The notes: generated from the sequence alone by a model not told the origin. 64,000 nt of DNA from Armatimonadota bacterium (GCA_036504095.1 DASXVS010000016.1:1-64000), one strand, 5' to 3'. Shown: positions 5,126 through 27,248, numbered from the stretch's first letter. Translations and numbers: made by a program.

Positions 5126-6348
5126 ACGACGATCTCCCCGTTTATCAGGCGCGGCAGTAGTAGGTCACGGGCAGCGCGAAGCTTCTGGTTCTGCGCATGA
5201 AGTGTCTTTACCTGTTGGAATAGCAGGCGCACCGTTTCCGTGAAGACGCTGAGGATCGTGGCCGAGGGAACGAAGACCGGGTACTTCTGGAAACAGCTCT
5301 CCTGGACACGCTGCCGCCCGGAGGAACCGATCATGCTCTTGATGGCGTTCTCCCGGAAGTCATAGGTTCGCGCAAGCAAGTACACGAATTCCGGAGTCAG
5401 GCGCCTGGATCGAAGCACAATGAACTCGGTCGAACCGCGTGCGACTTCACCGTCTTCCAGGAAAGCAACAAAGGCGGTCTTGCCGTTCTCCAGGCAGGGT
5501 GTGATACGAGCAAAGAGCGTGTCACCGTTCATGAACTTGCTCCCGGATCGTCCATCCCGCCGGGTTGCCTGCTGAATCAACATGCTACCAGGGAGAAGAT
5601 CGGCCATCTCAACCGACCAATGCTCGGCCGCATCTGAGAGTCTTACCGATGGGTTTATTTCGATTGCATTCGGCGTTGGTACTCGTTCCCATCCCTCTGG
5701 TACGCCGTTGGTGATACGGGCATGCTCGTAACCGGGGAAACGGAGCCGAACGAACCACTCCCGGTATAGCAGCCGCGCCGACTCTTCTAGTAGAACGATT
5801 CGCTTCCGATTGTTTTCGATCAGGTCGTCGTAGGCCGAGAGAACGTCCACCGTTGCGGTTTGCACGGAAGGTGCCGGCAAACGTAGGCTGATCCGTCGAA
5901 TAATGTCGTGGTTGAGGGAGGCCATCGTAGCCTTATTCCCAGACTGAGTCAGCATCCACTTTTGGTGAGAGGCAGCCAAGAACCCATAGGAAATGAACCG
6001 GGGGATGACTTCGTCGGTCATAAAGCGGAGGCGAATGCAGTCCGACCCCTGCATCCAATGATCTTGCCCTGCGGTTACGTAGAGGTGTCTATCGACGGCC
6101 CCCTTCCGGCCAAACACGATGTCCTGTGGCACGAGGAGATGTGTTGCCAGCCGCTCCGCTGTTACGCCTGCGACGAATTCGAGCTTTTCTGTCCGCAGGC
6201 CGCCATAGCCGATGTTGCGGACGTTGATGACAGGCGTCCCTTCGCTGGTGTAGGCGCTTGCCTTCAGTTGGGTTCCGAACGGTCCCGTCTGGATGTCAGC
6301 GAGTCCAGCATCTACCAATTCGCCAACGGTAAGCGCTCGCCAGCTCAT
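5122..6348 (-). CDS. hsdS: Type I restriction-modification specificity subunit
   Basis: A protein of 408 residues with two target-recognition domains (about 1-175 and 205-375), each followed by a conserved helical spacer: ENNRKRIVLLEESARLLYRE after the first and QQVKTLHAQNQKLRAARDLL after the second, which ends in LPRLINGE. This two-half layout recognises a bipartite DNA site. It overlaps hsdM by 4 bases at its start and hsdR by 4 bases at its end. Recognition domains of HsdS diverge quickly, so the target sequence cannot be read from the protein. Confidence 0.95.
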   Translation of the reverse strand: MSWRALTVGELVDAGLADIQTGPFGTQLKASAYTSEGTPVINVRNIGYGGLRTEKLEFVAGVTAERLATHLLVPQDIVFGRKGAVDRHLYVTAGQDHWMQGSDCIRLRFMTDEVIPRFISYGFLAASHQKWMLTQSGNKATMASLNHDIIRRISLRLPAPSVQTATVDVLSAYDDLIENNRKRIVLLEESARLLYREWFVRLRFPGYEHARITNGVPEGWERVPTPNAIEINPSVRLSDAAEHWSVEMADLLPGSMLIQQATRRDGRSGSKFMNGDTLFARITPCLENGKTAFVAFLEDGEVARGSTEFIVLRSRRLTPEFVYLLARTYDFRENAIKSMIGSSGRQRVQESCFQKYPVFVPSATILSVFTETVRLLFQQVKTLHAQNQKLRAARDLLLPRLINGEIVV

Positions 6349-8468
6349 ACTCCAAGTTCCTCGATATTCACCTGGATTTGCGCCGCCAGTTCAGCGGCTT
6401 CTTTGTTGAGGTCAGCCAGCTCAACATGAATATCGCGTACCGTCTGCTCGAAATCGAAGTCATCGTCTTCCTCAACTGAGGCGACACCAACATAGCGACC
6501 GGGGGTGAGACTCCAGTCGGCTGCCTCGATCTGAGCCCGGTTTGCGAGCGTAACGAGACCGGGGACGGCCACCAGTTCGGCATCCGGGAAGCGATCCTGC
6601 AACCAAGCGACCTGACGGTAGAAGTAGTTGGTCCGCTTCAACTGCTCAACGGCCGACTTGCGATCCGCATCTAGACGTTTCACGAGTTTCGCGGCACCTC
6701 GACGATCATAAGCCCAACTGATCGTTTCATCTACCGTGAACCCGGAAGCCATGTCGGTAACGCGGGCGGCGAGCTTGTAGATTAGGTCAACTTGCTTCAC
6801 GAGGCCGCGGACCGCCTCGGCGATGGGACTGAAAGCCACCCGAGCCGCGTGTTGGGAATCGTTGGTATCAGGCAACGTAGCTGCATAGTTCCCTCTGTAA
6901 GCGTCAAGGGTTCGAATAAGCTCCTCCTCGTCGGCCTTGTAGAGCGAGACAACCGCGCACAACTCGGCCACGGACCCTGCGATATCCTGCTTCTTGACGC
7001 CTTCGGGGTCGGCGTGCCCATCCACCGCCATCGAGAGGCCGTCGAAGTGTCCAGAGAGATTAGCAAGCGTAGCGTCGAAAGCGGCAAGCTCCGCCGGAAC
7101 GGCCGCGCTCTCGGTACAGATACTTCTAAGGTAATCCTCCACCAGTTCGAGGAACCGCGCTCGCTCCCCGCGGTACAACCACACGATTGCGAGTAGGTTC
7201 TGGAGCTGTTCGGGGCTGAAGTCACAGATCTTACGCGTAACCTGGCGGAAGATGCTCCGCGCGTCCAGCATCAGCACCGCGTCGGTCCGCGTTGAGGATT
7301 TCGCCTTGTCGAAAAACCAGAGCTCGCACGGGACAGACCGCGTGTAGAAGAAGTTCGAACGGATCGAGACCATTATGTCCACGTGGCCGGTCTCCACCAG
7401 GCGCTGCCGCACCTTGGCCTCGTCCCGGCCGGCGCTCGAGGACTGCGAGGACATGACGAATCCGGCCCGCCCCGACTCGTTCATGTAGCTGTAGAAATAC
7501 TGGATCCACAGGTAGTTGGCGTTACTGACCTTACCGCCCTTGTTGACTCCCGGCAGGCCGAACGTGATCCGCGGGTCGTTCTTGACCTTGTCGGCGTCCA
7601 CCTCATCCACATTGAACGGTGGATTGGCCATGACGTAGTCGCAGGCGTGGAGCAGGTTCTGGGGGTCGTTGTAGTAGCTGTTGGCGTCGTTGCCGGAGGT
7701 AATCGTTCCTTCCAGTCCGTGAACGGCCAGGTTCATCTTGGCAAGGTTGGCGGTGGTCTTGTTTTTCTCGTAGCCCCTGAAGGTGAGTTTCTCCGCCGGG
7801 TTTTCGTGGTTTCGCTCCACGATGTGGGCAGACTGCACGAACATGCCGCCCGATCCGCAGGCGGGATCGGCGACGATACCACTTTTCGGCTCCAAGACGT
7901 TGGCGATGAAGCTGACAAGCGAAATTGGCGTGAAGAACTCGCCGCCGTCGTGCGCGCCCTGGTCGGCGAACTGGGTCAGGAAGTACTCGTAGATGCGGCC
8001 GAAGATGTCCCCGTTGGCGCGCTTGAGAGCCTCGGGGTTGAGCGTGCGAAGCAGGTTGCCGAGGATCGCGTAGTCGAGCTCCTGGTACTCCTGTTTGGGC
8101 AGTACGCCCTCGAGACCCTTGTAGTCCTGCTCGATCGACTCCATCGCCGAGACGACAAGATCGGACAGCTTGGCGTTGTCAGCATTGGCGACCAGGTAGT
8201 CGAATTGCGCTTCCGGCCGGAGAAATATGGCGGAACGCTCCGAGAAGTCCTCCTTCGTAAGTGGCCGCGTCACGCCCCCGCGCGAAGGAAGCTTCTTTTC
8301 GATCTCAGGCTTGACGGCCAGGAACCGGCTGTAAGCATGGCGCAGGAAAATGAGCCCCATAACGGGCATGAAGTATTCGTTGCTGGCGAGGTTTGAGTTA
8401 GCCCGGAGTTGGTCGGCCGCGCTCCAAAGCCGCCGCTCAATCGCTTCGATGTTCTCAAGTTGTGTCAT
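6345..8468 (-). CDS. hsdM: Type I restriction-modification N6-adenine methyltransferase subunit
   Basis: A protein of 707 residues from the ATG at 8466-8468. That start fits the family's N-terminus (ENIEAIERRLWSAADQLRAN), although neither it nor an in-frame GTG at 8492 has a strong ribosome-binding site. The HsdM N-terminal helical domain is followed by the SAM-binding motif DPACGSGG (201-208) and the catalytic NPPF (282-285), both diagnostic of N6-adenine methylation. The protein is longer than the 500-odd residues of classical HsdM because of a helical C-terminal extension rich in Ala and Glu, which occurs in one HsdM subfamily. It is the first gene of the operon and divergent from the methyltransferase at 8,771. 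Confidence 0.95.
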   Translation of the reverse strand: MTQLENIEAIERRLWSAADQLRANSNLASNEYFMPVMGLIFLRHAYSRFLAVKPEIEKKLPSRGGVTRPLTKEDFSERSAIFLRPEAQFDYLVANADNAKLSDLVVSAMESIEQDYKGLEGVLPKQEYQELDYAILGNLLRTLNPEALKRANGDIFGRIYEYFLTQFADQGAHDGGEFFTPISLVSFIANVLEPKSGIVADPACGSGGMFVQSAHIVERNHENPAEKLTFRGYEKNKTTANLAKMNLAVHGLEGTITSGNDANSYYNDPQNLLHACDYVMANPPFNVDEVDADKVKNDPRITFGLPGVNKGGKVSNANYLWIQYFYSYMNESGRAGFVMSSQSSSAGRDEAKVRQRLVETGHVDIMVSIRSNFFYTRSVPCELWFFDKAKSSTRTDAVLMLDARSIFRQVTRKICDFSPEQLQNLLAIVWLYRGERARFLELVEDYLRSICTESAAVPAELAAFDATLANLSGHFDGLSMAVDGHADPEGVKKQDIAGSVAELCAVVSLYKADEEELIRTLDAYRGNYAATLPDTNDSQHAARVAFSPIAEAVRGLVKQVDLIYKLAARVTDMASGFTVDETISWAYDRRGAAKLVKRLDADRKSAVEQLKRTNYFYRQVAWLQDRFPDAELVAVPGLVTLANRAQIEAADWSLTPGRYVGVASVEEDDDFDFEQTVRDIHVELADLNKEAAELAAQIQVNIEELGV

Positions 8469-8770
8469 ATGTAGCGCTTGTAACGTCCCCACGCGCCCTT
8501 CGCGTAGTTCTTATCTACTGGCATCTTAGCAGAATCCACGCTCAGCTAACAGATGCGCTTACTGCTGGCGGCGGCGAGAGCGAGGCGAGTTGAGCACACA
8601 GGCGTACACTGTCCATAATGTTTGTAGCCCTCGGTAGTGCGCCTGGGGTTCTCGGAGCTCGCGGGGACATTACCCGCCAGCGAAATCGCATCGGCCTCGG
8701 GACGGGCCATCGTGGTGGCACGGTGTAAAATGGCCCGCGCCCGAAAATCCAGGCGGACAGGAGCGACAGT

Positions 8771-10987
8771 ATGCCCGTTTGGGTAAAGTCTCGGTGTTCA
8801 GACAAGTCTCGTCCGGACAACCAAGGCGAATCAGCTTCCAGCGTGCCCGCAGAAACCCCCTTCGCCGGGTTCCCGGCGCGCACGCTTCTCGAAGCCGGCA
8901 TTATACCCGTTGCCGAGCTTGCCGGCCTCGCCCTGCGCGAGAGCCATCGCACAAGTCCAATCTTCCGCGTCCACAGGTGGTTCGCCCGCCGCGTGCGCTC
9001 GCAGTTCCGTGCCATACTGACCGGCCTCGTTCTGCCCGAGAGCGCTGCGGATTCGTTCTGGAATACGTACTTCGGCGAGGTTGAGCTGGAGAATGCGGTG
9101 GTGGTCGATCCGTTTGTCGGCGGTGGCACGAGCCTCGTGGAGGCAACTCGCTGCGGGGCGAGGGTGATAGGCTTCGACATAGACCCCGTCGCCGTCGGTA
9201 TCACCCGCTTCGAACTCGGGGCGGCAGGGTTCGCGGAGTCGCTCGCGGCCGCGGAACGCGTCCAGTGCGCCGTCTCTACCCAGGTCCGCCCCTTCCACGT
9301 GACGGTCGCGGAGGACGGGTCGGAGCGCGAGGTGCTCCACCACTTCTGGGTCCAGGTGGTACCCTGCCGCGAATGCGGCGAAGGGATCGAGGTCCATCCC
9401 CATTTCCGCCTCGCGTGGAACAAGCGAACGCAGTGGACCTTCTGCAGCGGCTGCCACGCGGTGAGGGAGGTGCCAGCCAGCTCCGTCGAGATCGCCTGCT
9501 CCTGCGGAACCATGACCCGTCCGGCGATAGGGACGCTGGACCGGAACAGGCTTACCTGTCCGAAGTGCCGTCACGAGCAGCCGCTCGCGCCGGCGGAAGA
9601 ACCGCCCCGATGGTCGCTGTTCGCACAGGAATACCTGGACTCTACCGGCCGCGGGTTTATCCGGCGATTTAAGGCTGCGGGCGCATCGGACCGAGAACTC
9701 TTCGACAGCGCCAGACGGCGCCTCGCCGGAATCGACCGGCCGCTGTCGCCGGTGCGTCCCATTCCGGCCGAGGGCCGTTCCGACCGCCGGCCGCTCATCC
9801 ACGGCGTCCGTCTCTACACGGACCTGTTCAACGCCCGGCAGCGGCTCCACCTAGCGTTGCTGGGTCGCGAGGTGCTCGCTCTTCCGGGGAATGACCGCCT
9901 GCTGGTCGGCCTGGCGTACAGCGAGCACTTGGCGACGAACTGCATGTACGCGGGTTACGCCTTTGGGTACCGAAGGTTGGCGCCGCTCTTTTCCATCCAT
10001 GCTTTTCGGCACATCGTGCGCCCGGTGGAGCTCAACCCGTGGGCGCCGGTCGGCCGCGGTACATTTCCGAACGCGGTCGCCAAGCTCCGCGACGCCATCC
10101 AGTTCGCAGCCAATCCGACCGATCTCGATCCTGCGGGAGGCTGCCGTCCTTCGACCTATGCCATCGGTTCCACGGACGGCAGCGTCGCCCGCACGGCGGA
10201 GGAGGTCACCTCGGGAAGCGCGCGGGCTGCGGTCGTCGTCGCCTCGGCCACCGAGCTGCGAACCGTGAAGGACTGCTGCGTCGACCTGGTGCTCACGGAC
10301 CCGCCGTACTTCGACAACGTGTGCTACTCCGAGCTCTCGGACTTCTATCTCGCCTGGCAGCAGGAACTCGGCATCGCCGAGCCGCCGTACGAGGATCCGC
10401 GCCGGCCTGCTCCACTGGCTGAGAATCTAGCGCTGTCCTCACACAGCGAGGATGCGGTTGCCGAATACCTCTCCGCACTGACGGCGATCTTCGGCGAGTG
10501 CCGCCGCGTCGTTCGCGACGCCGGAATAATGGTCTTCACCTACCACCACCGCTCTCCCAAGGCATGGCTGGCCGTGGCTGGATCCCTGCACTGGGCGGGC
10601 TGGCGTTGCACCGGGGTCACTCCTATGCGCGGCGAGGGGCGCGGCGGCCTCCATACCTTTGCCGGCACGATCAAGTGGGACGCGGTCGTCACCTGCCGCA
10701 AGGGAACCGAGCATGCGCGTACGACCGGGACCGAGCTGATGGTCAGCGCCGAATCGGTCGACGAGGCCGTCCGTGACGTACGGGGATGGGGCTCCCGCCT
10801 AATCGCGCCCGAACTCGGCTTCAGCGATCCGGACATGGTTAACCTGCTGTGCGCCAATCTCGCCGTTCGCTGCACCGAGGGCGCCCTATCGCCGGATGCC
10901 ATGACCCTCAGCTATGCGCTCCAGGCGGCGCCGGCTCTGATATCGGAGAAGGATTCCGGCGGCCACGGAGGCGCGCCCGTCCCATAG
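8771..10987 (+). CDS. DNA methyltransferase with embedded zinc-finger cysteines (DUF1156-like)
   Basis: A protein of 738 residues. The N-terminal FRVHRWFARR segment is typical of DUF1156-type methylases. A SAM motif DPFVGGGT (113-120) and the acidic GFDIDP are split from the catalytic DPPY (510-513, in TDPPYFDN) by a long insert. The insert carries four cysteine pairs, C199/C202, C225/C228, C243/C245 and C263/C266, that look like zinc-ribbon fingers. The order of motif I before motif IV and the DPPY sequence suggest amino-methylation of adenine or cytosine. AGGAG lies 8 bases before the ATG. The downstream Dna2-like nuclease-helicase starts 6 bases after its stop, so methylation by this enzyme probably protects self DNA from that partner. 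Confidence 0.8.
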   Translation: MPVWVKSRCSDKSRPDNQGESASSVPAETPFAGFPARTLLEAGIIPVAELAGLALRESHRTSPIFRVHRWFARRVRSQFRAILTGLVLPESAADSFWNTYFGEVELENAVVVDPFVGGGTSLVEATRCGARVIGFDIDPVAVGITRFELGAAGFAESLAAAERVQCAVSTQVRPFHVTVAEDGSEREVLHHFWVQVVPCRECGEGIEVHPHFRLAWNKRTQWTFCSGCHAVREVPASSVEIACSCGTMTRPAIGTLDRNRLTCPKCRHEQPLAPAEEPPRWSLFAQEYLDSTGRGFIRRFKAAGASDRELFDSARRRLAGIDRPLSPVRPIPAEGRSDRRPLIHGVRLYTDLFNARQRLHLALLGREVLALPGNDRLLVGLAYSEHLATNCMYAGYAFGYRRLAPLFSIHAFRHIVRPVELNPWAPVGRGTFPNAVAKLRDAIQFAANPTDLDPAGGCRPSTYAIGSTDGSVARTAEEVTSGSARAAVVVASATELRTVKDCCVDLVLTDPPYFDNVCYSELSDFYLAWQQELGIAEPPYEDPRRPAPLAENLALSSHSEDAVAEYLSALTAIFGECRRVVRDAGIMVFTYHHRSPKAWLAVAGSLHWAGWRCTGVTPMRGEGRGGLHTFAGTIKWDAVVTCRKGTEHARTTGTELMVSAESVDEAVRDVRGWGSRLIAPELGFSDPDMVNLLCANLAVRCTEGALSPDAMTLSYALQAAPALISEKDSGGHGGAPVP

Positions 10988-10993
10988 GAGGCA

Positions 10994-13900
10994 ATGACCG
11001 TGCCGCTACTTTCCAAAACAGCGATATCGCAGTATTTCCGCACCGAGTGCCAGCGGCAACTGCGCTTCACCCTATACCCCGACAACGAATCCTACCGGGC
11101 TCAACGGGAAGCGCAGGGCATGCCAGCCCCCCAGCCTCCGCGTCCGGGCCTTCACCACATCCGGCGGGAAGGTGAGGACTGGCAGGCCGAAAAGCTCGGC
11201 GATCTGACCGAAGCGCTCGGGGCCGCCGCCCTCGTGGGATCGCCGAAAGCGCTCCCCGACGGACGCACCCTCTACGTCGCCGAGCCGCTGCGCGACCTGC
11301 TCGGGCGGGCGGTTCCCGGGACCTTTCTCGTCGAAGCCCAGTATGAGGTCACGTCGGCCTTCGAGGACGCCCTCTTCATCGCGGGGCACCGGGCGGGCCT
11401 GGGGCTCCGGTACTCCGACGTCCGTCCGGACCTCGTCCAGGTGCTGCCGGCGCGGACCAGCGTCGAAGGAATCCGAGCTGACGGGAGCCGTACGGTGCTG
11501 CCACCCGAAGACGGCCGACTGCAACTCCGCGTGATCGATATCAAGCTCGCCTCCGAGCCGTCGGTCGGGTACTTCGGCGAAGTCGTGTACTACATGCTCA
11601 CCTTGGCGGCCTGGCTGCAGCAGAATGGCCTGGATAACCGATTCGTCGTGGTCCCGGACGGGGCGGTATGGCCTGGCAGCCACGAAGCCTCTGCTCTCGC
11701 TTCTGCGCGAAGGGAGGCCGCAGCCGAGGGGACCGCCCTGACAACCCAGCAACTCATGGATGTTCTTGAAGGGGACCTGGAGTTCCTTGGCGGCGCATTC
11801 GACGTGCTCGCCATACGCCTGCGCCGTTTCCTTCAGGACGAGGTCCCGCCGGTCCTGGCCGAGGCAGACTGGAGGAGCCTGCCGTGGCACGTTGGGAACC
11901 GCTGCCAGAGCTGCGAATACCTTGGCGAACCGCGATTGGACGCCCAAGGCCGGCCTACCGAGCTTCCCGACCACTGCCTGCCGATGGCGGAGCGGGACGG
12001 CCACCTGAGCCGCGTCGCGTTCGTCAGCCGCGGCGCCACCCTATCACTCAAGGAAGCCGGCATCGCCGACGTGCCATCCCTCGCCCAGTGCGAGCCGGAT
12101 CACGTGGCGTTCGACGGCCACCAGGCGCTTCGCGCGACGCGCACGGTGGTCGCCGGCAGAGCCCGCTCGCTGGGTAGTGGTAGTGCCGGCCTTCCCCCGA
12201 ATGGCGGCACGTCGGCGCTCATGCCCGGATGGGCCGATCTGCGTATCTACTTGGACGTCCACTTCGACGTCGGAAGCGCCATCACGTTCGCGCTCGGAAT
12301 CAAGGCTTTCTGGGTGGAGCCCTGGGTTGCCGGGCATGGCGCGGGCGGGCGGGCGACCCATGCGTGGCGGGACCAGGTCTTCGTCGTCGACGGGAAGGAC
12401 GTCGAGAGGGAACGCCGCGAACTCCTCGCCTTCCTGGACCACCTGCAGCGCATCCTGGCGGACGCGCGGGGGCGAAACACCGGCACGACATACCAGGTGT
12501 ACCTATGGGACCGCCTCGCATACGAGCACCTCACGCGCATCGTCGGGCGGCACCTAGACTCCATCCTGCAAGACGGGAACCTCCAGCAGCTCGCCTGGCT
12601 CTTCCCGCCGGAGGAGTTGCTGCCGAACCCGACGCTCACGGTCCGGCGTTCCCCGGTCACGATCGTCGGCGACGTGGCCAAGGCAGTCCTGGCGGCACCG
12701 GTGCCCCACTACTACACCCTGCTCAACGTCGCCCGCCACTACCACGACGCGGGGCTGCCGGACAACCTGGCAGGCTTCAGCACTCACCCTCACTTCGAGA
12801 CCGCGCTCAGCGACCAGGTACCTTCCGAGCGGGCCCACGAGATCTGGTCGCACTCCTCGAGGCCGAACTGGTCCGAGCAGGTGGCGACTTTGCGCGAGAC
12901 AGTAGTCAAGCGGCTGCGCGCCCTCGAATCGGTGACGAAGCGGCTCGAACGGGATCTGCGCGCCCACCTTGTACAGCACGCTCCACCGATCAGCATCGGT
13001 CCGCCCACCCGCCAGAACCGGGTGAGCGACGACGGCCAGCTCTGGCACGCGTATACAAAGCTGAACCAGGCGCTCGAGGAACTGGACGTGCAGCAGATTC
13101 GGGCCATGCCGGCGCACGAGCGCGAAGCCCGCTTCCGGAGCGCGCGCCTCATCGCGCGGCTCACCGGGGCGGGAGAGCTGGAAGCCCTGCAGGCAATGGG
13201 GCTGTCTGCCAGGCCCGGCCGTCGGGTCTACCGGCTGCGTCACGGTTCGCGCGAGGTGAAGTTCCGCGAAGGAGACTTCTCCTGCGCGCTCGCCCCCGAG
13301 AGCGATCCGACGTTCCTTGACCGCACGCTGTCCTCGGTAGCGCTGGGAAGTCCTCCCGACCCGGGCGACGGGAGCGGCGACCGGACGCTGATGGGGGACG
13401 TGACGGCGGTTGCGGTCGTCGGCATCGACCGCGACAACGCCGCCATCGCCCTCGACCCGAACACCCGCTGGCCGCAGGGATTAGACGACCTCGAGCGTTT
13501 CGGCCGCGCCAACCTGACGACCGAGGTGACCCTGGACCCGGTGCAACACGACTACTTCAGCCGCAAGCTCCTGGCGGCCCTGCAGGGTATCGGCAACCCT
13601 CAGGTGGCCGTAGCGGCCGCAGCGGTGCGCAGGGCGGTCGGGCTGACGGGCCGCGGGGCCCGTCCCGCGCCGATGTCACCGGCAGCCGAGGTGCTCTGGA
13701 CGGCGGCCGACCTGCACCGAAGTCCAGTGGCGAGGGAGCTCCCGGCGGCCAGGGCGGAGCTGGTAGCGAGCGGCCTCGACCTCAATCCCGCCCAGTGGGA
13801 CGCGTGGTCGCAGGCGCTCACGCGCCGGCTCCAGCTCATCTGGGGTCCGCCGGGCACGGGAAAGAGCCGGACCGCACAAGCGATCGTCCTCGGCGCCGCC

Positions 13901-15286
13901 TACGAGGCCCTCCGGACCGGCCGGCCCTTCCGGATCCTCGTATGCGCGTTCACCTACCGGGCGACGGATAACGTCCTACTGGGCGTGAACGCCAAGGCAC
14001 CAGGCCTGCTTGCCGGCGATGTCGAGGTCCACCGCCTGCGATCCTACCGCAGCCCGGTCGACGCATCGGTCCCGGCTTCTATCGACCGCCCAGTGAACCA
14101 GCGGAACCCGAGCCAGGAACTCCTTGCGCTTCACGCCCGCCTGCTAGCCAGTCGGGGGGTTACGATCGTCGGCGGGACGGCGGACCAGGTGCACAACCTG
14201 ATGCTTGCCGGGTCCGGCAGTGCGGTCGAAGGGCTCTTTGACTTGGTGCTCATCGACGAGGCGTCCCAGATGGATGTGGCGCACGCCGCGGTGGCGCTCT
14301 GTTCCCTTGCCACCGGCGGCGCGGTGGTCCTGGCAGGGGACAGCAAGCAGCTGCCGCCGATCCACAAGGCCGAGCCGCCCAAGGGACTGGAGGACCACGT
14401 CGGATCCGTCTATACCTACTGCGAGCTGAGGCACGGAGTGCCCTCGGTCATGCTTGACCTCAACTACCGCTCGAACGCCACCCTCGTGGGGTTCTCGCTT
14501 CGGGCCGGATACCGCCGCGAGCTCAGCGCATATTCCCCCGACCTGGAGCTGGACCTCGTGTCCGCGCTTCCTGCCGAAGCACCGGCAGACTGGCCCCCCA
14601 CCCTCTTCTGGACACGGGAGTGGGCCGCGTTTCTCGATCCCGGCCGCCCGGCCTGCTGCTTCCTCTACGACGAGAACCGTAGCAGCCAGTGGAACCGCTT
14701 CGAAGCCGACGCCGTCGCCTCCCTCGTGGCGCTTCTCCACGGGAACGTCGGGGGGCAGCTCCTCAATGAGCGCGATCCGCGCACCGGCAACGTCCTGCCG
14801 ACGGACTCCGCAGCATGCTCGTCCGAGTACTTCTGGCAGTCAGGCATTGGCGTCGTCACGCCCCACCGCGCCCAGCAGGGGCTCATTGTCGGACGCCTCC
14901 AAGGCATCTTCGCGCCGCGAGGAGTGGCGGCGCAGACGATCCGCGACGCCGTCGACACAGTCGAGCGATTCCAGGGGCAGCAGCGAGACGTCATCATCGC
15001 GTCCTTCGCGCTTGGCGATCCGGACGCGATCCGGGACGAAGAGCAGTTCCTGATGAGCCTGAACCGTTTCAACGTGATGGCCTCGCGTGCCCGAGCCAAG
15101 CTGATCGTGCTGGTCTCTCGGCAGGTGATCGACCATCTTGCAGGCGACGCCGAGATCCTGCGGGGTTCGGCGCTCCTGAAGCTGTACGCGGAGTCGTTCT
15201 GTGGCCACCGGAGGGGGATGCGCTTAGGATGGGTCTCGGACGGCGAGGACACGCTCGTGGAGGGCACCTTCGGGTGGGCTCCCTAA
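10994..15286 (+). CDS. Dna2-like protein: Fe-S RecB-family nuclease fused to an SF1B helicase
   Basis: A protein of 1,430 residues. The N-terminal 320 residues look like a Cas4/AddB-type nuclease: a lone Cys in FRTECQRQ near residue 16, SDVRPDLVQV, a catalytic-type VIDIKLA near 180, a helix with YYMLTLAAWLQ, then a CxxC (NRCQSC) near 300 and another Cys in DHCLP, the spacing expected for a 4Fe-4S cluster. A middle region of about 600 residues has no motif I recognise. The C-terminal Upf1/Dna2-class helicase has Walker A GPPGTGKS (951-958), DEAS (from 1088), GDSKQLPPI, LNYRS and a late RFNVMASRARAKL. The ATG sits only 2 bases after GGAGG; a GTG at 11,000 is spaced better and may be the true start. 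It is paired with the methyltransferase upstream. Confidence 0.8.
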   Translation: MTVPLLSKTAISQYFRTECQRQLRFTLYPDNESYRAQREAQGMPAPQPPRPGLHHIRREGEDWQAEKLGDLTEALGAAALVGSPKALPDGRTLYVAEPLRDLLGRAVPGTFLVEAQYEVTSAFEDALFIAGHRAGLGLRYSDVRPDLVQVLPARTSVEGIRADGSRTVLPPEDGRLQLRVIDIKLASEPSVGYFGEVVYYMLTLAAWLQQNGLDNRFVVVPDGAVWPGSHEASALASARREAAAEGTALTTQQLMDVLEGDLEFLGGAFDVLAIRLRRFLQDEVPPVLAEADWRSLPWHVGNRCQSCEYLGEPRLDAQGRPTELPDHCLPMAERDGHLSRVAFVSRGATLSLKEAGIADVPSLAQCEPDHVAFDGHQALRATRTVVAGRARSLGSGSAGLPPNGGTSALMPGWADLRIYLDVHFDVGSAITFALGIKAFWVEPWVAGHGAGGRATHAWRDQVFVVDGKDVERERRELLAFLDHLQRILADARGRNTGTTYQVYLWDRLAYEHLTRIVGRHLDSILQDGNLQQLAWLFPPEELLPNPTLTVRRSPVTIVGDVAKAVLAAPVPHYYTLLNVARHYHDAGLPDNLAGFSTHPHFETALSDQVPSERAHEIWSHSSRPNWSEQVATLRETVVKRLRALESVTKRLERDLRAHLVQHAPPISIGPPTRQNRVSDDGQLWHAYTKLNQALEELDVQQIRAMPAHEREARFRSARLIARLTGAGELEALQAMGLSARPGRRVYRLRHGSREVKFREGDFSCALAPESDPTFLDRTLSSVALGSPPDPGDGSGDRTLMGDVTAVAVVGIDRDNAAIALDPNTRWPQGLDDLERFGRANLTTEVTLDPVQHDYFSRKLLAALQGIGNPQVAVAAAAVRRAVGLTGRGARPAPMSPAAEVLWTAADLHRSPVARELPAARAELVASGLDLNPAQWDAWSQALTRRLQLIWGPPGTGKSRTAQAIVLGAAYEALRTGRPFRILVCAFTYRATDNVLLGVNAKAPGLLAGDVEVHRLRSYRSPVDASVPASIDRPVNQRNPSQELLALHARLLASRGVTIVGGTADQVHNLMLAGSGSAVEGLFDLVLIDEASQMDVAHAAVALCSLATGGAVVLAGDSKQLPPIHKAEPPKGLEDHVGSVYTYCELRHGVPSVMLDLNYRSNATLVGFSLRAGYRRELSAYSPDLELDLVSALPAEAPADWPPTLFWTREWAAFLDPGRPACCFLYDENRSSQWNRFEADAVASLVALLHGNVGGQLLNERDPRTGNVLPTDSAACSSEYFWQSGIGVVTPHRAQQGLIVGRLQGIFAPRGVAAQTIRDAVDTVERFQGQQRDVIIASFALGDPDAIRDEEQFLMSLNRFNVMASRARAKLIVLVSRQVIDHLAGDAEILRGSALLKLYAESFCGHRRGMRLGWVSDGEDTLVEGTFGWAP

Positions 15287-15896: not shown

Positions 15897-17774
15897 ATGT
15901 CGAAGTGGTATATTGATGAAGTCCAAGTGAGTGGAGGGTTCTTACCAGGCTTTTTGCTCCGCCTTCCGCGCGGCCTAACCTGCGTGATCGGGCCCCGAGG
16001 GAGCGGAAAGTCCACGCTTGCTGAAGCCATCCGGTACGGGATAGGCGGCATTACCGGTGCAACAAGACCGCGCCTGGATCTCATCCAGGCAAACCTGGGC
16101 GACTCGATCGTGTCACTTCGGACGTCTGCTGAGGGACAACTACCCGGGTATCACGTCCAGCGAAGCTTTCGCAAACCCGCCGTTGTAACGTCGGACAACG
16201 GCGCGGTCACGGCGATCGACCTAGACCGAGGCACCTTTCTCCCGATTGACGGATACAGCAGCGCCGAGATCGAGGCCATAGCAGATGAAAGCGTCGGCGA
16301 GAAACGCCGTTCTCTTCTTGATGATCTTCGTGCCCGGGAACTAGGGGAGATTCAGATATCCTTGGCAACCTGCCGCCGCTTACTCGAGGCAAATGCGGAT
16401 CAGATCAGAGCGATCAGGCGGTCCATCAGTGACTTTACAGAGGGCATCGAGGAACTCGCGGAGGCCCGGCCCCGACTCGATTCGCTTCCGGCTGTGACAA
16501 CGGCAGCCTCCACTGATCTTCTCCGGCTGACACGAGGAATCGAGGATAACGAGAGCCGAACTAAACAACTAGAGTCACTAGTGAATGCTTTGAGGTCGAT
16601 CCAGGACACTTTCCGAGAAGCATCACTCCGAACGCTACCCGGGCGTTCGCCGCAGGCCGAAGAGGCTCAATCGCCGATCTCATCGCTGCTGCGGGAGGGA
16701 TGGAAGGTGGCCTCCGCCGCCTTGGAAGAAGCCAATACCACCGGACTTGCTGTGGCCCTGCGACTGGACGTGGCCATCGATGCATTAAGTGTCATTCGAT
16801 CCCAGATGGACGAATTGAATGCGCGAGATACCGCCCTTGTAATCGAGATGCAGGAACTGAACCGCTCAGCCAGCCTCGCGGTCCAAGAACGTTCGCTTGC
16901 AGAACAAGCTGTAGCGCATCTCGATGGCCTTGAGAGGGAACGCGATAATGCTAGGGCACGCCTAACGGATCTCTTACAAGGAAGGTCTTCGCTCAAGGCA
17001 GATTACTTGGTAGAACGTGATCGTATCTCGTGCCTGAGGGAAGAGGTAGCAACCCAACTACAGGCCGACGCTGGCACCAGTGTTCGCATTCGGGTACTGC
17101 GGAACGCTGACGCATTGAGCTATCAGCAGATGCTAATGGAAGGCTTGAAAGGCGCTCGAGTCAGGAACCATGAAGACATCTTGAGTGCCCTAATGCGCCT
17201 CAGGCCCGAGCAGTTGGCCCAGATTGTTTTGAACGATGATCTCATGGAATTTGAGCACCAAGTATCACTCGGCACTGAACGATCACGCCGCATACTTGAC
17301 GCCTTTCGCCAAAGCATCGATCCACTCAGCCTGGAGGTATCCACCATCGAAGATCGTATAGCTATCGAGCTTAACGTATCGAGTGGAGCAGATCCCAACT
17401 TTAAAGATGCCTCCGAGTTGTCCCGTGGTCAGAAATGCACAGCCCTTCTTCCACTGCTTCTAGCCCGGCGCGAGACGCCACTTGTAATCGATCAGCCTGA
17501 AGATAATCTCGACAATCACTTCATCTACGCCACGGTCGTGGAGGTAGTGCGGCGGCTGAAGATGTCGCGTCAGATGATCTTTATCACCCACAATGCCAAC
17601 ATTCCAGTGCTGGCAGAAGCTGATTTAGTCGTGGTACTGAACTCCGATGGTAGGAAAGGCTACATCGAGAAGATGGGCAGCTTGGATGAGTGTCAAGACG
17701 AGATCATAGACCTGCTAGAGGGCGGTCGCGAGGCATTTGAGCTCCGGAGGCAGCGGTATGACAGGGTCCGATAG
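15897..17774 (+). CDS. SMC/RecF-like ABC ATPase with coiled-coil insert
   Basis: A protein of 625 residues. Walker A is GPRGSGKST (32-40), close to the N-terminus. A long Glu/Arg/Leu-rich, probably coiled-coil region fills about residues 130-480. Near residue 505 the ABC signature LSRGQ appears, followed by the Walker B VIDQPEDNLDN and FITHNANI, which is the SMC/RecF/Rad50-like split-cassette layout used in several phage-defence ATPases. No nuclease, HNH, PHP or TOPRIM motif is visible, so it is probably a DNA or damage sensor needing a partner. GGAG lies 8 bases before the ATG. The next gene starts inside its 3' end (17-base overlap), so both belong to one operon with the response regulator after that. 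Confidence 0.8.
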   Translation: MSKWYIDEVQVSGGFLPGFLLRLPRGLTCVIGPRGSGKSTLAEAIRYGIGGITGATRPRLDLIQANLGDSIVSLRTSAEGQLPGYHVQRSFRKPAVVTSDNGAVTAIDLDRGTFLPIDGYSSAEIEAIADESVGEKRRSLLDDLRARELGEIQISLATCRRLLEANADQIRAIRRSISDFTEGIEELAEARPRLDSLPAVTTAASTDLLRLTRGIEDNESRTKQLESLVNALRSIQDTFREASLRTLPGRSPQAEEAQSPISSLLREGWKVASAALEEANTTGLAVALRLDVAIDALSVIRSQMDELNARDTALVIEMQELNRSASLAVQERSLAEQAVAHLDGLERERDNARARLTDLLQGRSSLKADYLVERDRISCLREEVATQLQADAGTSVRIRVLRNADALSYQQMLMEGLKGARVRNHEDILSALMRLRPEQLAQIVLNDDLMEFEHQVSLGTERSRRILDAFRQSIDPLSLEVSTIEDRIAIELNVSSGADPNFKDASELSRGQKCTALLPLLLARRETPLVIDQPEDNLDNHFIYATVVEVVRRLKMSRQMIFITHNANIPVLAEADLVVVLNSDGRKGYIEKMGSLDECQDEIIDLLEGGREAFELRRQRYDRVR

Positions 17775-18771
17775 TACCCCAATGCATGCCCGGCTTCAGC
17801 GTTTGGTGGTGGAGGATCCGAAGTCAGCTCGCGTTTTGTTCTGCGAGCTCCTGGATGCGGACGTGCCCGTCCTGGAGCATTTTCTGGCGCGCATCGCTGC
17901 TCCGGGAGACGGTCGTCTCCGGCAAATGGTTGCGAACGCCGTGCGCGAACGCGCGGACAAAGGGAAGGTGGTTGGGCATCTCGTCAGATGGCGGGCGGTC
18001 GAAACAGACGAGTTCACTAAACGTGCGATTGTAGCGGCCTTGGCCGACGTTGATCTTGTCGACCACAAGTCTCCTCCAACGGCATCGTTGGCCGAACCGC
18101 TCCTTGTTGAGGCATATCGTTACGTGTCGAACCGTTTGAGCCACAAGGTTCGCAATTCGCTGATGGGGGTTGACGCCGCGGTGATGCGGATATCAGACCT
18201 CGCGTCAGGCGCCCGAGACGATCTGGCTCAAACCGGGTTGCTTTCGGCAATGGCCGAATTGAAAGACGCACTACGGACGTTGGGACGAGTGGTGGAATAC
18301 GATGAGGGTAATGATGAGTTTTTTCGCCTCCGCTCCGTTTGCCTGTTGGGCTGGATTGAGGATATGACGCGGACGTATGGGATCAAGTACTCTCCCATCG
18401 ATCTCCGCCTACCGGATGGGCGCGCGCGTACAGCTCGCATAATCGCGAGTGACTTCCTCCTTGACACCATATTCTGGAACCTCTGGATCAACTCGCACCA
18501 AGCGGTAGACGGACGGTGCTCAATCACGATCGAGAGTACTCTCGATGTGGGGCGCATATCCCTTATCTTGTTGGATAATGGGACTGGTTTTCCGAAACAG
18601 GCCGTGGGTGTTGCGTTCCGAGAGCAGTTCTCTACTGGACAGGCTACGGGACGCGGGCGCGGCCTCCTCGAAGTGCAGGAGGCGATCGAGAGACTTCAAG
18701 GGTCCGCCACGCTCATCGAATGCGGCGCCGGAGATTATAGGGTGTGTCTTGTGTTTCCGCTGGAGGTCTGA
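17758..18771 (+). CDS. Soluble histidine kinase (HATPase_c) without a sensor domain
   Basis: A protein of 337 residues with no membrane segment. After an N-terminal helical region of about 115 residues comes an H-box-like helix SNRLSHKVRNSL with the probable phospho-acceptor H129. The HATPase domain follows: N-box NLWINSHQAV (241-250), G1 box DNGTGF (273-278) and G2 box GRGRGL (298-303). The H-box reads SHKVRN rather than the usual HELRNP, so it is atypical. A CGGAGG 7 bases before the ATG fixes the start inside the ATPase gene. The stop shares one base with the start of the response-regulator gene. The three proteins are therefore likely made together, with input to the kinase coming from the ATPase rather than a membrane receptor. 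Confidence 0.8.
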   Translation: MTGSDSTPMHARLQRLVVEDPKSARVLFCELLDADVPVLEHFLARIAAPGDGRLRQMVANAVRERADKGKVVGHLVRWRAVETDEFTKRAIVAALADVDLVDHKSPPTASLAEPLLVEAYRYVSNRLSHKVRNSLMGVDAAVMRISDLASGARDDLAQTGLLSAMAELKDALRTLGRVVEYDEGNDEFFRLRSVCLLGWIEDMTRTYGIKYSPIDLRLPDGRARTARIIASDFLLDTIFWNLWINSHQAVDGRCSITIESTLDVGRISLILLDNGTGFPKQAVGVAFREQFSTGQATGRGRGLLEVQEAIERLQGSATLIECGAGDYRVCLVFPLEV

Positions 18772-20387
18772 TGGGATACCCACGAGCACTTGAAGTACTA
18801 GTTGTTGAAGATGAGCAAAAGGCAAAGGCTGCGTATGAGGCAATGTTTGAGAGGCTTCGCGGCAAAGGCGCCGACTTGCACTGTCGGTACGCCTTCTGCC
18901 TTCAAGACGCGGTCGAGGCCTTGGCATCCGAAACCGCATTCCATTTGGTGATTTTGGACCTGCTGATACCGGATCACCCCGGACACCCGCCGCCCACGGT
19001 TGTGGAGAACGGGCTCATGGTGTTGGACCTCTGTGCCAACCGGGACGCCTATCCCGTTCCCGTCCTGCTGGTAATCAGCGGCCACCTCGACCAAGCGCGC
19101 CAGACGGAGCTACAATCGCGCGTCCTAAGCGGGTTTTCGTTTGGAAGAGTTCTCGCCAAAGGCGTAGGCTTGGACGACGACTTGGAGACGGCGGTACGAA
19201 ACGCGCACCGCTATACCGACGTGGGCATTCACTTGCGAAACGGTGGATCGTTCACGTATCCTACGTTGTCGCCTCGCGACGACGATCTGCTCCGGCGCTG
19301 TGTACTCGACCAATCAGGCTGTTCAGGCGTGGACGTAGAGTGGTGGTCGGCGGAAAGCTGTTCCCCCACGTGCCAGGAGGCCCGCGGCGCGGGGTGGACA
19401 AAGGTCCTGATGGGAAAGTTCGTACTGGATGACGGAGCCGGTATGTCCCGCCCCACTTTTTTCAAGCTCTGGCCCTCTGACGGCGCAGAATCAGTCTTCC
19501 GCGCCGCCGACGTGATGCAGCACAAATTGGGGCACATCAACATCCGGTCCAAGTGTTCGTCAGGTACTGCTGCTGTTCTCGTAACGGAGAAGGTCGGCGA
19601 GGAGTCTGGTCGCCCCACCTCTTTGGCGTCGTTTCTCATGCGTGATCCATCATCAACCTTACCGTTCCTGCCTGGGATCGTCGACGATGTTTGCAGCCAA
19701 ACCGATAGACTCGGGACTGAGTCACCCGATGAGCTGCCCATCGCATCCATCTTATGGTCTTGGCACGATCTTGAACGGATCCGCAACCAGTACGAGAAGC
19801 ATAGTTGTCCGCCGCCGGCTCTCGATCCGACGCTCTTTTCAGATCCGGCCGAGGTATACGATACTCTACGATTGCAGCAGACACCCATTCGCCTAGCGCG
19901 CCAGTCATGTATCCACGGAGACCTCAACATCACGAACATTGCGCTCGATGTCGGTGCGAAGGTGGTTCGCGGCTATATCTTTGACGCTGCTGCGTTCGGC
20001 GGAGGCTTCAGCGGGTGGGATCTGGCCACGCTGGAGGTTACAACTCTTCTGCACTCAGTAGGCTCTCTTGACGAAGGACTGGTTGAATACTGCGGGTCCT
20101 TCTACAATCAGGCGTTACCGGCGGATCTGGGGTTCGTTCGAGAGGATGCCACTTCGCGCCAGCGCAATTCCGCGAGTCTGGTTTACGAGATCCGCCAACG
20201 AGTTCTTGAGCGCGTCAGTCCGGAAGTATATGCACTGATGGTTTTCGATAATGCGCTCATGCAACTGGGCGGGCTGGACTTCCAGGTGTCGCGGAACAAG
20301 ATCACTTTGCCCTCTGACGCCGCGTTGTTGGCGGCGCTAGCGGCTGGGTGGCTCATCCGCGTTTCACCGCAATGGTTCGCGAAGTAA
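18771..20387 (+). CDS. Response-regulator receiver fused to an APH-like kinase domain
   Basis: A protein of 538 residues. Residues 1-150 are a canonical receiver: acidic cluster E13-D14-E15, phospho-acceptor D63 in VILDLLIPD, S103 in VISGH and K130 in VLAKG. The remainder resembles the aminoglycoside-phosphotransferase/kinase-like fold: HGDLNITN with H382, D384 and N389 as a catalytic loop, then FDAAAFGGGFSGWDLATLE with a candidate metal-binding Asp. No DNA-binding domain is visible, so the output of phosphorylation would be an enzymatic phosphotransfer instead of transcription. The ATG overlaps the TGA of the histidine kinase gene by one base and has GGAGG 5 bases upstream. The receiver is near certain; the kinase assignment rests on the catalytic-loop motif. 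Confidence 0.75.
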   Translation: MGYPRALEVLVVEDEQKAKAAYEAMFERLRGKGADLHCRYAFCLQDAVEALASETAFHLVILDLLIPDHPGHPPPTVVENGLMVLDLCANRDAYPVPVLLVISGHLDQARQTELQSRVLSGFSFGRVLAKGVGLDDDLETAVRNAHRYTDVGIHLRNGGSFTYPTLSPRDDDLLRRCVLDQSGCSGVDVEWWSAESCSPTCQEARGAGWTKVLMGKFVLDDGAGMSRPTFFKLWPSDGAESVFRAADVMQHKLGHINIRSKCSSGTAAVLVTEKVGEESGRPTSLASFLMRDPSSTLPFLPGIVDDVCSQTDRLGTESPDELPIASILWSWHDLERIRNQYEKHSCPPPALDPTLFSDPAEVYDTLRLQQTPIRLARQSCIHGDLNITNIALDVGAKVVRGYIFDAAAFGGGFSGWDLATLEVTTLLHSVGSLDEGLVEYCGSFYNQALPADLGFVREDATSRQRNSASLVYEIRQRVLERVSPEVYALMVFDNALMQLGGLDFQVSRNKITLPSDAALLAALAAGWLIRVSPQWFAK

Positions 20388-24008: not shown

Positions 24009-26954
24009 CTACGCGTCGTCTGTCAGCGCATCCCTTACCGCCTCGTCAAGCGGTCTCGCTGCACCGGCAGCAAACGCCGCAGCAAAGGCCTGTATACCGG
24101 TAGCCTCCTTGGCCTTCGCCACTGACGATTCCTGATCAGGAAGGTCCGAATCGGGAACCGGCACGCCGATTTTCGCGCGAAGCCTGTCCGCGGCACCGAA
24201 CAGCCATGCGGATCGATACCCACTGCGCCGTTCGGCAGCCAGGGAGGCAAGGTTCTCAAATACAGCCGCGACTCCGCGCTCATCCCCGGCGTTGTAGCGC
24301 CGTGTTAGCGCGTCGCTCAGCAGTGCTTGGCACCCATCCAGGTCCCCCGAGCGCATGAGATAGACCGCCAGGTTGTTGCTTGCGGTTGCCACTCCCGCCT
24401 CGTCACCCGCCTCACGGTAGTACTCAAGTGCCGAGACTCCGTACGTCCTGGCGCCGTCGAAGTTGCCCAGATTGGACTCCTGCCTGGCGAGGTTGTTCAG
24501 CGCCGCTGCGATCCCGCCGGCGCCCCCGATCTTCAGACGCAGGGACAGGCAGGCTTCGTGGTAGCGTCGGGAAAGCCGACTACGCCCGCGCGTATCCGCG
24601 AGAACGCCGAGGTTCCCGAGGGAGGAGGCAGCTATCCCTTCCAGGGAGAGCATTCGGGCAATGCGAAGCGCCCGGAGGTACGAGATCCGAGCCTCGCGAT
24701 AGTCGTGGGAAATGAACGCAAGTACGCCGAGGCAGTTGTAGGCCTTGGCCAAGGGCTTGGATCCTTCCAGCCCTTCCGCCTGCCGGAGGGCCGATCTCAA
24801 CTGGGCCCGACCCTCATCCAGCCACCCCCTCACAGACCAGAAGCCGGACAAGGAGGCCACGAGCTGTACCTGAGCGAGTCGGAACTCGGCTGGTTTCGGC
24901 CACGCCAGCGCGACGCGGATGTCTGGATATAGCCGGCTGACGCGCTCCAGTCCAGAGTCATATCGCGCCGCCTGGGCTCCGCCATACTCTCCCTCGACTG
25001 CGTGGCAGACGTGCTCAAAATGGCGCCGCCTCACGAGTTCCGCCTCCGCCGTGTCGTCGTGGTCGGGCCTCAGGCGCCGGCGGGCGAACTCGCGGACATA
25101 GGAAAGGAGTCGGAAGCGCCCATCCGTCGCAGTCCCGTGCTGCTGGACCAGCGACGCTTCGACCAGCCTCGCAAGCAGACGGGCTATGGGCCGCGATCCA
25201 ATCGCCCCGCGGTCCGGCGGGGATTGCGCACTTGTCCCGTCTCCGCAGACCGCCTCTGCGTCCGCCAGGGTCCAGTCAGACGCGAAGAACGAAACCCGGC
25301 GCAAGAGCGCCTGCGCTTCGGGTTCGTCGGCCAGAAGCTCGTAGCTCCAGGAGAGCATCTGGTCGAGGGATGCCTGGTGACCTCGCCCGCCTCGGTGCCG
25401 CGGAGAGAGCATATCAAACCACTCATCCCACCGAGCCGAAATCTCGGCCGCTGAGCCCAGGGTTCCTGCCAGCGACCCGGCCAGAACTGTGAGGTATGGA
25501 ATCCCATCCAGGGCACGACAGATCGAGTCGACGGATTCGGCGTCACTCTCCTCGATCCGGAACAAGAGGTTCGCCTTGCCGGCGGCTCCCTCAAAGATGC
25601 GCACGACCTCCGTATCGCGAAAAGCCGCGAGGTTATGCCACAAACCATCTGGTGGGAGTGGCAGCCCTGGCACGTAGACCGGCACCTCATCGCGCATTCC
25701 GACTGCCGACCTGCTTGTCGCGAGCAGAGACAGGCCCGTGCATGGCAGAAGCGCGTTGGCGACGGTGCGGCAGGCCGCGACGACGTGTTCGCAGTTGTCG
25801 AGGACAATCAGCAGGTTTCGTGTACGGGCGTACTCGCGGAGCGAATCAATCCGCGGGGCGTCCAGCGCTAGCGGAATTCCCACGGCCGACGCGATTTCCT
25901 CCGCCACGGTGTTCTCAAGGTCGAGGCCCGTGCCGTCCTCGAAGCCAACTTGGGAGAGGTCGACAAACCAGACGCCGTCCTCAAACTGCGGGATCAGTTC
26001 GTTCGACGCCAGAATGGCCAGTTCGGTCTTGCCCGAGCCGGGTGGCCCCCAGAGGGTCACCCGCCGCCGCCCGTCGAGACACATGTTCCACTGGATCCTG
26101 AGCCCTTCACTGGTCCTTCCGACAAAGCCCGCTAGGCCAGGCGGAAGGTAGGCCCGGCCTGAGTTTCGCCTCCGCTCGGCTGTCTCTCGACGCGAGTCGA
26201 CCTCGCTCGCGAGCTGAGTGATAGTGTCTGCTTTTGCGGATTTTGGCCAGCGCCGCTGTGCGCTCTCACAGGCGCGCGACGCTTGGGAGTACCGGTGAAG
26301 CGCGCAAAGCGTATCAACGAGCAATTCGTTGGCCGTCGTCGGAGGCGGAGTCTCAGTGCCCCACTGCTCCCACTCTCTTTCCGCTGCCCGTTGGAGGCAG
26401 GCAAGGGCTGGCTGGCAATCGCCTTCGGCCACCATCGCGGCCACGAATAGCCCGCAGCCGACGATGAAGCGGTTGTGTGCTTCAACTCGAGCGTTGCTCG
26501 CCCAACCGTCACGAATCCCAAGCAGGATTGGCCGATAGCTCTCCACGGCTTGCGCCAGGCTGCTTAGGTCACCTCGTTCGGCGCGGGCAATGTCGTCCTT
26601 GAATCGGCGGAGATCCACTTCGTCGCCGCTCAGATCGAGTGTTACCGCACTTTCTGGTGTTCTGACCAGTCGCCTCTCCCCAAGCGCCATCTTGAGTTGT
26701 GTCAGCGCTCTCCAGCGGTCGCCCGGCTTCTTGCCGAGGTGTTTCGCCAATTCATCGCTCTCGACAGGGCGTTGCGCCCGCAATGATAGTAACGCCAACG
26801 TGTCCCATCGGATTTCGCTCCTGCGGAGCGAGGCGATCGTCTGAGCGTCCTTCTCCCTGTCGTCTTCGCGCTCCGCGGCGGAGACGACATCGAAGGGTCC
26901 CATCAGGCCGAAGTGGAGCGGACCCTTGAGTTCGTCGAACCTTGTCATGGCCAT
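24009..26954 (-). CDS. AfsR-like regulator: SARP-type N-terminus, STAND ATPase, TPR repeats
   Basis: A protein of 981 residues from an ATG preceded by GGAGAAAC. The N-terminus starts with LHFGLMGPFDVV, as in SARP regulators, and continues as a winged-helix-like domain (about 40-120) and a helical BTAD-like domain (120-260). A STAND/NB-ARC ATPase follows with GPPGSGKTE near 300, VWFVDL, LLIVLDNCEHV near 385 and LLATSRS. The remainder, about 600-950, is a series of TPR-like repeats (KAYNCLGVLAFISHDYREAR and similar Asn/Ala/Tyr-spaced helices). Such proteins switch transcription on binding a ligand or partner. It is divergent from the small XRE gene at 27,249. The target is unknown; it may control the surrounding island. 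Confidence 0.8.
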   Translation of the reverse strand: MAMTRFDELKGPLHFGLMGPFDVVSAAEREDDREKDAQTIASLRRSEIRWDTLALLSLRAQRPVESDELAKHLGKKPGDRWRALTQLKMALGERRLVRTPESAVTLDLSGDEVDLRRFKDDIARAERGDLSSLAQAVESYRPILLGIRDGWASNARVEAHNRFIVGCGLFVAAMVAEGDCQPALACLQRAAEREWEQWGTETPPPTTANELLVDTLCALHRYSQASRACESAQRRWPKSAKADTITQLASEVDSRRETAERRRNSGRAYLPPGLAGFVGRTSEGLRIQWNMCLDGRRRVTLWGPPGSGKTELAILASNELIPQFEDGVWFVDLSQVGFEDGTGLDLENTVAEEIASAVGIPLALDAPRIDSLREYARTRNLLIVLDNCEHVVAACRTVANALLPCTGLSLLATSRSAVGMRDEVPVYVPGLPLPPDGLWHNLAAFRDTEVVRIFEGAAGKANLLFRIEESDAESVDSICRALDGIPYLTVLAGSLAGTLGSAAEISARWDEWFDMLSPRHRGGRGHQASLDQMLSWSYELLADEPEAQALLRRVSFFASDWTLADAEAVCGDGTSAQSPPDRGAIGSRPIARLLARLVEASLVQQHGTATDGRFRLLSYVREFARRRLRPDHDDTAEAELVRRRHFEHVCHAVEGEYGGAQAARYDSGLERVSRLYPDIRVALAWPKPAEFRLAQVQLVASLSGFWSVRGWLDEGRAQLRSALRQAEGLEGSKPLAKAYNCLGVLAFISHDYREARISYLRALRIARMLSLEGIAASSLGNLGVLADTRGRSRLSRRYHEACLSLRLKIGGAGGIAAALNNLARQESNLGNFDGARTYGVSALEYYREAGDEAGVATASNNLAVYLMRSGDLDGCQALLSDALTRRYNAGDERGVAAVFENLASLAAERRSGYRSAWLFGAADRLRAKIGVPVPDSDLPDQESSVAKAKEATGIQAFAAAFAAGAARPLDEAVRDALTDDA

Positions 26955-27248
26955 GTTTCTCCGGCCCTGCGTACGTGCATTTCCAACTTGCGATTTCTGC
27001 ACCCCATCTTGCGCGTCCGACGCTGGACGATGCGAAACAGAGGCGCCCTAACTTGAGTGTAGCCCGGCGGGTCTGGGGTGACGAACCCGAATCCAGCGAA
27101 CAGCGTGCAGGCCGACTCTTCGAAACGAGACATCAAACATGGTCTCTCGAGAGCGCGATTTGGATCAGCGAGAATTCACGGATCGCGCCTTCATACATTC
27201 GCCGGGCATTCCTGGCGGCATCACGCATCGGCGCAAAGGAGGGCTGTT

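Follow-up and report, generated by a model that had tools for sequence, protein, structure and literature searches.

The window studied here, a stretch of 64,000 nucleotides of DNA from an Armatimonadota bacterium, contains at 15897-20387 three overlapping plus-strand genes that make up a genuine, conserved signalling unit: a stand-alone SMC-like ABC ATPase of the TrlF/Ppl type, a soluble histidine kinase with HEAT repeats at its N-terminus, and an APH-like kinase to which a receiver is fused. An earlier note on this DNA had proposed that the three genes act together, and their relatives bear this out. The full trio recurs, in the same order and with overlapping genes, in unrelated hosts, namely a second Armatimonadota family (locus L003/L035) and the Acidobacteriota (L120), and the pair of ATPase and histidine kinase is found in at least seven phyla. 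From its genomic context, the trio is probably antiviral.

The three genes and their products

The ATPase gene (15897..17774, plus strand) encodes 625 amino acids and the proposed sensor or switch. It is followed by the histidine kinase gene (17758..18771, plus strand), which gives 337 amino acids from the ATG at 17758 and has an alternative TTG start at 17737, and by the gene for the receiver-kinase (18771..20387, plus strand), with 538 amino acids from the ATG at 18771, the proposed output enzyme. Both ATG codons are preceded by GGAGG, and with these starts the ATPase and histidine kinase genes overlap by 17 nt and the histidine kinase and receiver-kinase genes by 1 nt, as had been claimed. 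A scan for promoters and terminators gave no signal above chance. All catalytic motifs named in the earlier note were found, and only their numbering shifts: the positions H136, D72 and D393 used below are counted from longer open reading frames that begin 7 and 9 residues before the starts assumed there, so that H136 of the histidine kinase, numbered from the TTG, is the former H129 and D72 of the receiver the former D63.

The first protein has a Walker A motif (GPRGSGKST, residues 32-40), the signature LSRGQ (508-512) and a Walker B motif (LVIDQPED, with D532 and E535), and Pfam matches it with SMC_N, AAA_23 and AAA_21, in agreement with its description as an SMC-like ABC ATPase. What that description missed is a closer kinship, seen in the ATPase tree and in the match to the NCBIfam family TrlF_fam_ATP (E=1.2e-83, profile positions 294-943 of 944); the PADLOC Ppl profile matches as well, at 6e-20. 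Because the profile alignment begins only at position 294, the protein corresponds to the ATPase half of TrlF/Ppl without the N-terminal PHP enzyme, and its score of 282 bits lies below the curated whole-protein cut-off of 350. The two are thus alike over the ATPase half from end to end, including the conserved Walker B sequence IDQPEDNLDN, but TrlF/Ppl carries its PHP enzyme in cis whereas the window trio has signalling partners that act in trans.

The second protein matches HATPase_c in Pfam (E=2e-9). Apart from the start, no position but H136 is identical across all 24 aligned relatives, and N248, N252, D280, G282, G284, G307 and G309 are kept in at least 90% of the same 24. Its predicted structure shows six antiparallel helices leading into a long helix that bears H136 and then into an ATP-binding domain, and a Foldseek search with this model returned histidine kinases as the top solved matches (ZraS, 9jfj, E=3e-9). 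The identification as a soluble histidine kinase therefore stands, but the N-terminal HEAT repeats had been overlooked. This HEAT adaptor lies at 17779..18045 on the plus strand, or approximately residues 15-103 of the 344-amino-acid form, and the related protein of L004 has a HEAT_2 match. The most informative comparison is with L037, where the ATPase is 52% identical to that of the window and its partner is a PP2C phosphatase: the HEAT parts of the two partners are 51% identical over 87 residues, with no similarity past that point. Within the clade of the window, then, the ATPase and the HEAT adaptor stay about 50% identical and the catalytic domain behind them switches from histidine kinase to phosphatase. 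Because the adaptor is constant while the domain behind it swaps, the HEAT part likely faces the ATPase, and the remainder of the protein is likely an exchangeable output.

Both halves of the third protein were correctly recognized. Its receiver aligns with those of sister systems with an hhalign probability of 97.9%, and between them the histidine kinase and the receiver hold the phospho-acceptor histidine, the N and G boxes, and the acidic pair, aspartate and lysine of a receiver. Matches to Response_reg and TCAD9 are weak yet consistent in the window and L003, the TCAD9 (PF19974) scores being 19.6 and 24.4 bits against a gathering cut-off of 40; the kinases that are direct partners of the ATPase, discussed below, score 50-86 bits. 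The window kinase domain is divergent, falling below every Pfam cut-off and having a glycine-rich loop that differs from the GGxSG usual in its relatives. K241, H391-G-D393, N398, D414 and D426 are invariant between it and ten related kinases. Foldseek placed APH(3')-Ia (probability 1.00) and choline kinases on top, using a poor model (pLDDT 55), and the protein has the features of the APH-like superfamily, with the HGDxxxxN motif, the metal-binding aspartate, the N-lobe lysine and, as far as a low-confidence model tells, the fold.

Stand-alone ATPases and their partners

A scan with the ATPase alignment found 80 loci when one genome was taken per species and 26 loci in viral contigs; the neighbours at these loci were read and then scored with HMMs built for this analysis. 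The ATPases are of two kinds. Enzyme-fused forms are 840-1037 amino acids long, and 32 of 42 have a PHP-like D-h-H-x-H-S/T motif, while stand-alone forms are 613-721 amino acids long or truncated and none was found to have that motif. A signalling partner is present at all 63 distinct loci where a stand-alone ATPase has a readable downstream neighbour, in contrast to none within 3.5 kb downstream of the 36 fused ATPases with enough downstream DNA (Fisher p ~1e-27, under an assumption of independent loci that does not hold); the ambiguous loci L090 (truncated) and L104 (split by a frameshift) were left out of these counts. In the 61 records measured, the start of the partner's open frame ranges from 373 nt ahead of the ATPase stop to 21 nt beyond it. 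A tree of the ATPases, made with a quick method and having long branches among the fused sequences, puts the stand-alone forms to the same side of a branch with an SH-aLRT of 94.

The partners fall into five classes. The largest, a HEAT-histidine kinase followed by a receiver-winged helix protein, comprises 40 loci in Planctomycetota, Verrucomicrobiota, Lentisphaerota, Pseudomonadota, Myxococcota, Acidobacteriota and viral-database contigs; as most relay members end in such DNA-binding receivers, the system may originally have controlled genes and had no effector as its output. The second is a HEAT domain joined to a SpoIIE/RsbU-type PP2C phosphatase and is found at six loci, all in Acidobacteriota (L030, L031, L032, L033, L034 and L037). 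An HMM had matched these proteins as histidine kinases, but only the HEAT part matches and the remainder is the phosphatase. The ATPases of L003 and L030-L037 are 46-53% identical to that of the window, and the six phosphatase loci, with ATPases about 50% identical to it and ordinary chromosomal surroundings, would represent an ATPase-gated phosphatase.

In the third class a TCAD9-type APH-like kinase is itself the direct partner, at ten loci (L071, L074, L076, L078, L080, L081, L082, L089, L092 and L098) and the truncated L072, mostly in Bacteroidota and Planctomycetota. No receiver is detectable in these kinases; a degenerate one suspected by eye in L071 and L092 was dismissed at hhalign probabilities of 0.3 and 0.1. 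The proteins have 600-668 amino acids, including an N-terminal region of 270-300 to which no fold was assigned, and several of their operons adjoin type IIG restriction or CBASS genes. These pairs of ATPase and TCAD9 kinase give the impression of a two-gene defence system that has not yet been described. Elsewhere, in Pseudomonadota, TCAD9-like kinases occur in fusions, with a superfamily 2 helicase in L151 and with a P-loop NTPase-like region in L155. The fourth class is a single locus in Bacillota (L105, 7971-10500), where the ATPase is followed by a protein of HEAT and OmpR-type winged helix, with neither histidine kinase nor receiver; here the ATPase possibly controls transcription directly.

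The fifth class, HEAT-histidine kinase and receiver-kinase, consists of the window, L003/L035 and L120. Since the same kind of kinase serves as direct partner at the third-class loci, an output from ATPase to kinase exists without a relay, and together with the triads of ATPase, histidine kinase and transcription factor this means that each half of the chain is found separately. The window trio joins the two half-chains. In the ATPase tree the window groups first with L036 (94); the phosphatase group joins next (98), followed by L035 (100), and L120 is placed elsewhere, with L105 (97). Given this distance, at least two separate lineages have the receiver-kinase output. L036, from Verrucomicrobiota, has the ATPase nearest to that of the window, and its histidine kinase is cut by the contig end, which is why the HMM misassigned it as a phosphatase; its H-box and place in the tree identify a histidine kinase. 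At one Acidobacteriota locus (L119, G950, 9799-12356) a histidine kinase with a truncated HEAT adaptor and a receiver-kinase have no adjacent ATPase, and either the system has decayed or its ATPase acts in trans; a Fic protein and a possible nucleotidyltransferase lie nearby.

The receiver-kinase is rare and patchy. Full-length profile matches came from two of the 291 Armatimonadota genomes and two of the 297 Acidobacteriota genomes, that is, from 4 of about 1,775 genomes from six phyla; in 388 Verrucomicrobiota, 294 Planctomycetota, 189 Myxococcota and 299 Pseudomonadota genomes there was none, the searches returning just ordinary receivers or unrelated kinases. In L120 (G907) the profile search matched the kinase part only, and the full trio was identified by reading the locus. 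A tblastn search of plasmids with the receiver-kinase, and searches of viral contigs with the histidine kinase and the receiver-kinase, gave no match.

Genomic surroundings and proposed function

In the window, the trio sits downstream of a type I restriction-modification operon (1910-8492, minus strand) and of a DNA methylase and helicase pair, 6 nt apart (8771-15286, plus strand; N6_N4_Mtase and DUF1156-like; AAA_11/AAA_12). The helicase, of 1430 amino acids, has a DpdJ/MkoA-like match and a cysteine cluster (CQSC...C) resembling Fe-S nucleases. The pair was considered as part of the trio system and rejected, as it is absent beside other trios; it is probably a separate two-gene defence system. 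An NB-ARC/TPR regulator of the SARP/AfsR type lies beside the island (24009-27002, minus strand). L120 is likewise flanked by a DNA methylase with an Mrr-type domain, a PLD-like protein and an ApeA-like HEPN protein. More broadly, 60 ORFs neighbouring the kinase-output systems matched 113 PADLOC families (E<=1e-10), among them type IIG restriction enzymes and a CBASS cyclase that has a TIR effector, and 97 ORFs neighbouring the winged-helix relay systems matched 255 (E<=1e-10), including type I-IV restriction and Druantia, compared to 31 families, mainly one Ser/Thr kinase, for 97 control ORFs taken elsewhere in some of these genomes; these counts are indicative only, because the families overlap. 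No restriction-modification, CBASS or ApeA genes were seen in the control regions. The defence setting proposed in the earlier note thus holds for the window, for L120 and for the neighbours as a whole, but not for the L003 trio or the phosphatase branch (L030-L037), whose neighbours were read and form no evident defence island. One neighbour in L003 (3536-4783, minus strand) is a repeat protein without a Pfam match, with a motif like AFGE.K(T/S)...W(S/A)(K/R)DPRC.

We favour, with moderate confidence, the reading that the operon is an intracellular sensor-relay-effector device in which the ATPase senses and the relay activates a kinase that stops phage growth. The SMC-like ATPase, of the TrlF/Ppl family, would act as a dimer, detect a state linked to the intruder (a phage product or unusual DNA being the probable triggers) and change its conformation with ATP. 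By docking on the HEAT adaptor it would bring about autophosphorylation of H136, the predicted phospho-acceptor, from which the phosphoryl group is predicted to pass to D72 of the receiver. This may release the fused APH-like kinase, which would then phosphorylate a small molecule or a cellular target and so halt phage growth. The reading is suggested by the occurrence of the whole trio, with its gene overlaps and gene order, in three lineages; by the split in partners between stand-alone and fused ATPases; by the invariance of H136 and the intact catalytic residues of receiver and kinase; and by the constancy of the HEAT adaptor before a swapped catalytic domain, along with the existence of direct ATPase-kinase pairs. 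Its defence part draws on the PHP-fused relative, named 'anti-phage protein Ppl' by NCBIfam, and on neighbours richer in defence genes than the control. Counting against the reading are the DNA-binding receivers in which most relay members end, L119 with its missing adjacent ATPase, the divergence of the window kinase, and the position of L003 and L030-L037 outside evident defence islands.

The trio might instead be a general stress-signalling two-component system, with an ATPase that responds to damaged DNA or to trouble in replication, and a relay that governs a kinase of metabolic or regulatory role, without any part in defence. The 40 sister systems ending in gene control and the pairing of the closest ATPases with PP2C phosphatases in ordinary chromosomal neighbourhoods would agree with this, but the patchy occurrence of the receiver-kinase, the defence-rich neighbours relative to the control, the antiviral PHP-fused relative and the sister systems on viral-database contigs all fit a defence or mobile role better, and we consider such a stress system unlikely, if worth keeping in mind. 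Distinctly improbable in our judgement is a self-directed kinase, where the APH-like domain phosphorylates the ATPase or a partner and the relay acts as a brake, keeping the system off until the ATPase is disturbed. Receivers are often inhibitory, and the 11 loci (one truncated) where kinase and ATPase are paired without a relay point the same way and suggest that the relay may be further control on top of the pair. That three unrelated genes were gathered by chance in a variable island, as the variable region with its restriction-modification genes might invite one to think, can practically be set aside in view of the recurrence of the complete order in unrelated hosts (L003, L120), the one-to-one pairing of ATPase and partner at 63 loci and the start-stop overlaps.

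Relation to known systems and implications

A known system with similar relay logic is Detocs, which has three genes encoding the sensor kinase DtcA, the phosphate buffer DtcB and the receiver-effector DtcC. To our knowledge, Detocs has no SMC-like ATPase. It is a defensive two-component system (PMC11249213), so that relay-based defence as such is not new; the unusual features that stand are the input by an SMC-like ATPase and the output by an APH-like kinase. The window trio shares with Detocs a defence logic of three genes, which include a histidine kinase and a fusion of receiver and effector enzyme (PMC11249213), but differs in the ATPase as proposed input, the HEAT adaptor, and an output that is a PNP in Detocs; moreover, no stand-alone receiver gene is present in the window or its relatives. 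The vWA-MoxR-VMAP ternary conflict systems have APH kinases and receivers among their effectors, histidine kinases not being reported in them (PMC7159879). They share with the trio the TCAD9-family APH-like kinase as output enzyme, but the trio has no vWA, MoxR or VMAP, and in it a histidine kinase serves a kinase that carries a receiver. The PADLOC candidate PDC-M60 matches weakly through its receiver-containing subunits (E 0.003 and 1.5e-4), a generic receiver match with no other subunit matched. With Septu, PARIS, Lamassu and MADS the likeness is a weak similarity of the ATPase (PADLOC PtuA, AriA, LmuB and mad3). The effectors of these systems are nucleases, toprim or other enzymes, and we know of no phosphorelay in them. 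No PADLOC model covers the three-gene set, and the window histidine kinase has no PADLOC match. A full-text literature search found no description of the set, though one may exist, key original papers being outside its reach.

Taken together, we regard it as an evenly balanced question whether all these loci constitute one modular family, so far undescribed, that works as intracellular immune signalling by having a stand-alone TrlF-type ATPase drive swappable phosphorus-signalling outputs, through HEAT or directly, with the window as the first ATPase-gated phosphorelay ending in an effector kinase. The outputs in this family would be a histidine kinase leading to a winged helix or to a kinase, a PP2C phosphatase, and a kinase or a winged helix driven directly, and there is a real chance that the whole of it is new. 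If so, a widespread class of SMC-like defence ATPases would be a plug-in sensor serving either an enzyme in cis or partners in trans, the latter (histidine kinase, phosphatase or kinase) reached through a small HEAT adaptor; sensing by the ATPase and the passing of its signal would become testable by standard two-component biochemistry; and immunity under phosphorelay control would gain a second, unrelated example beside Detocs. Should the role not be defence, the trio and its relatives would still be a new class of ATPase-gated two-component system spanning at least seven phyla.
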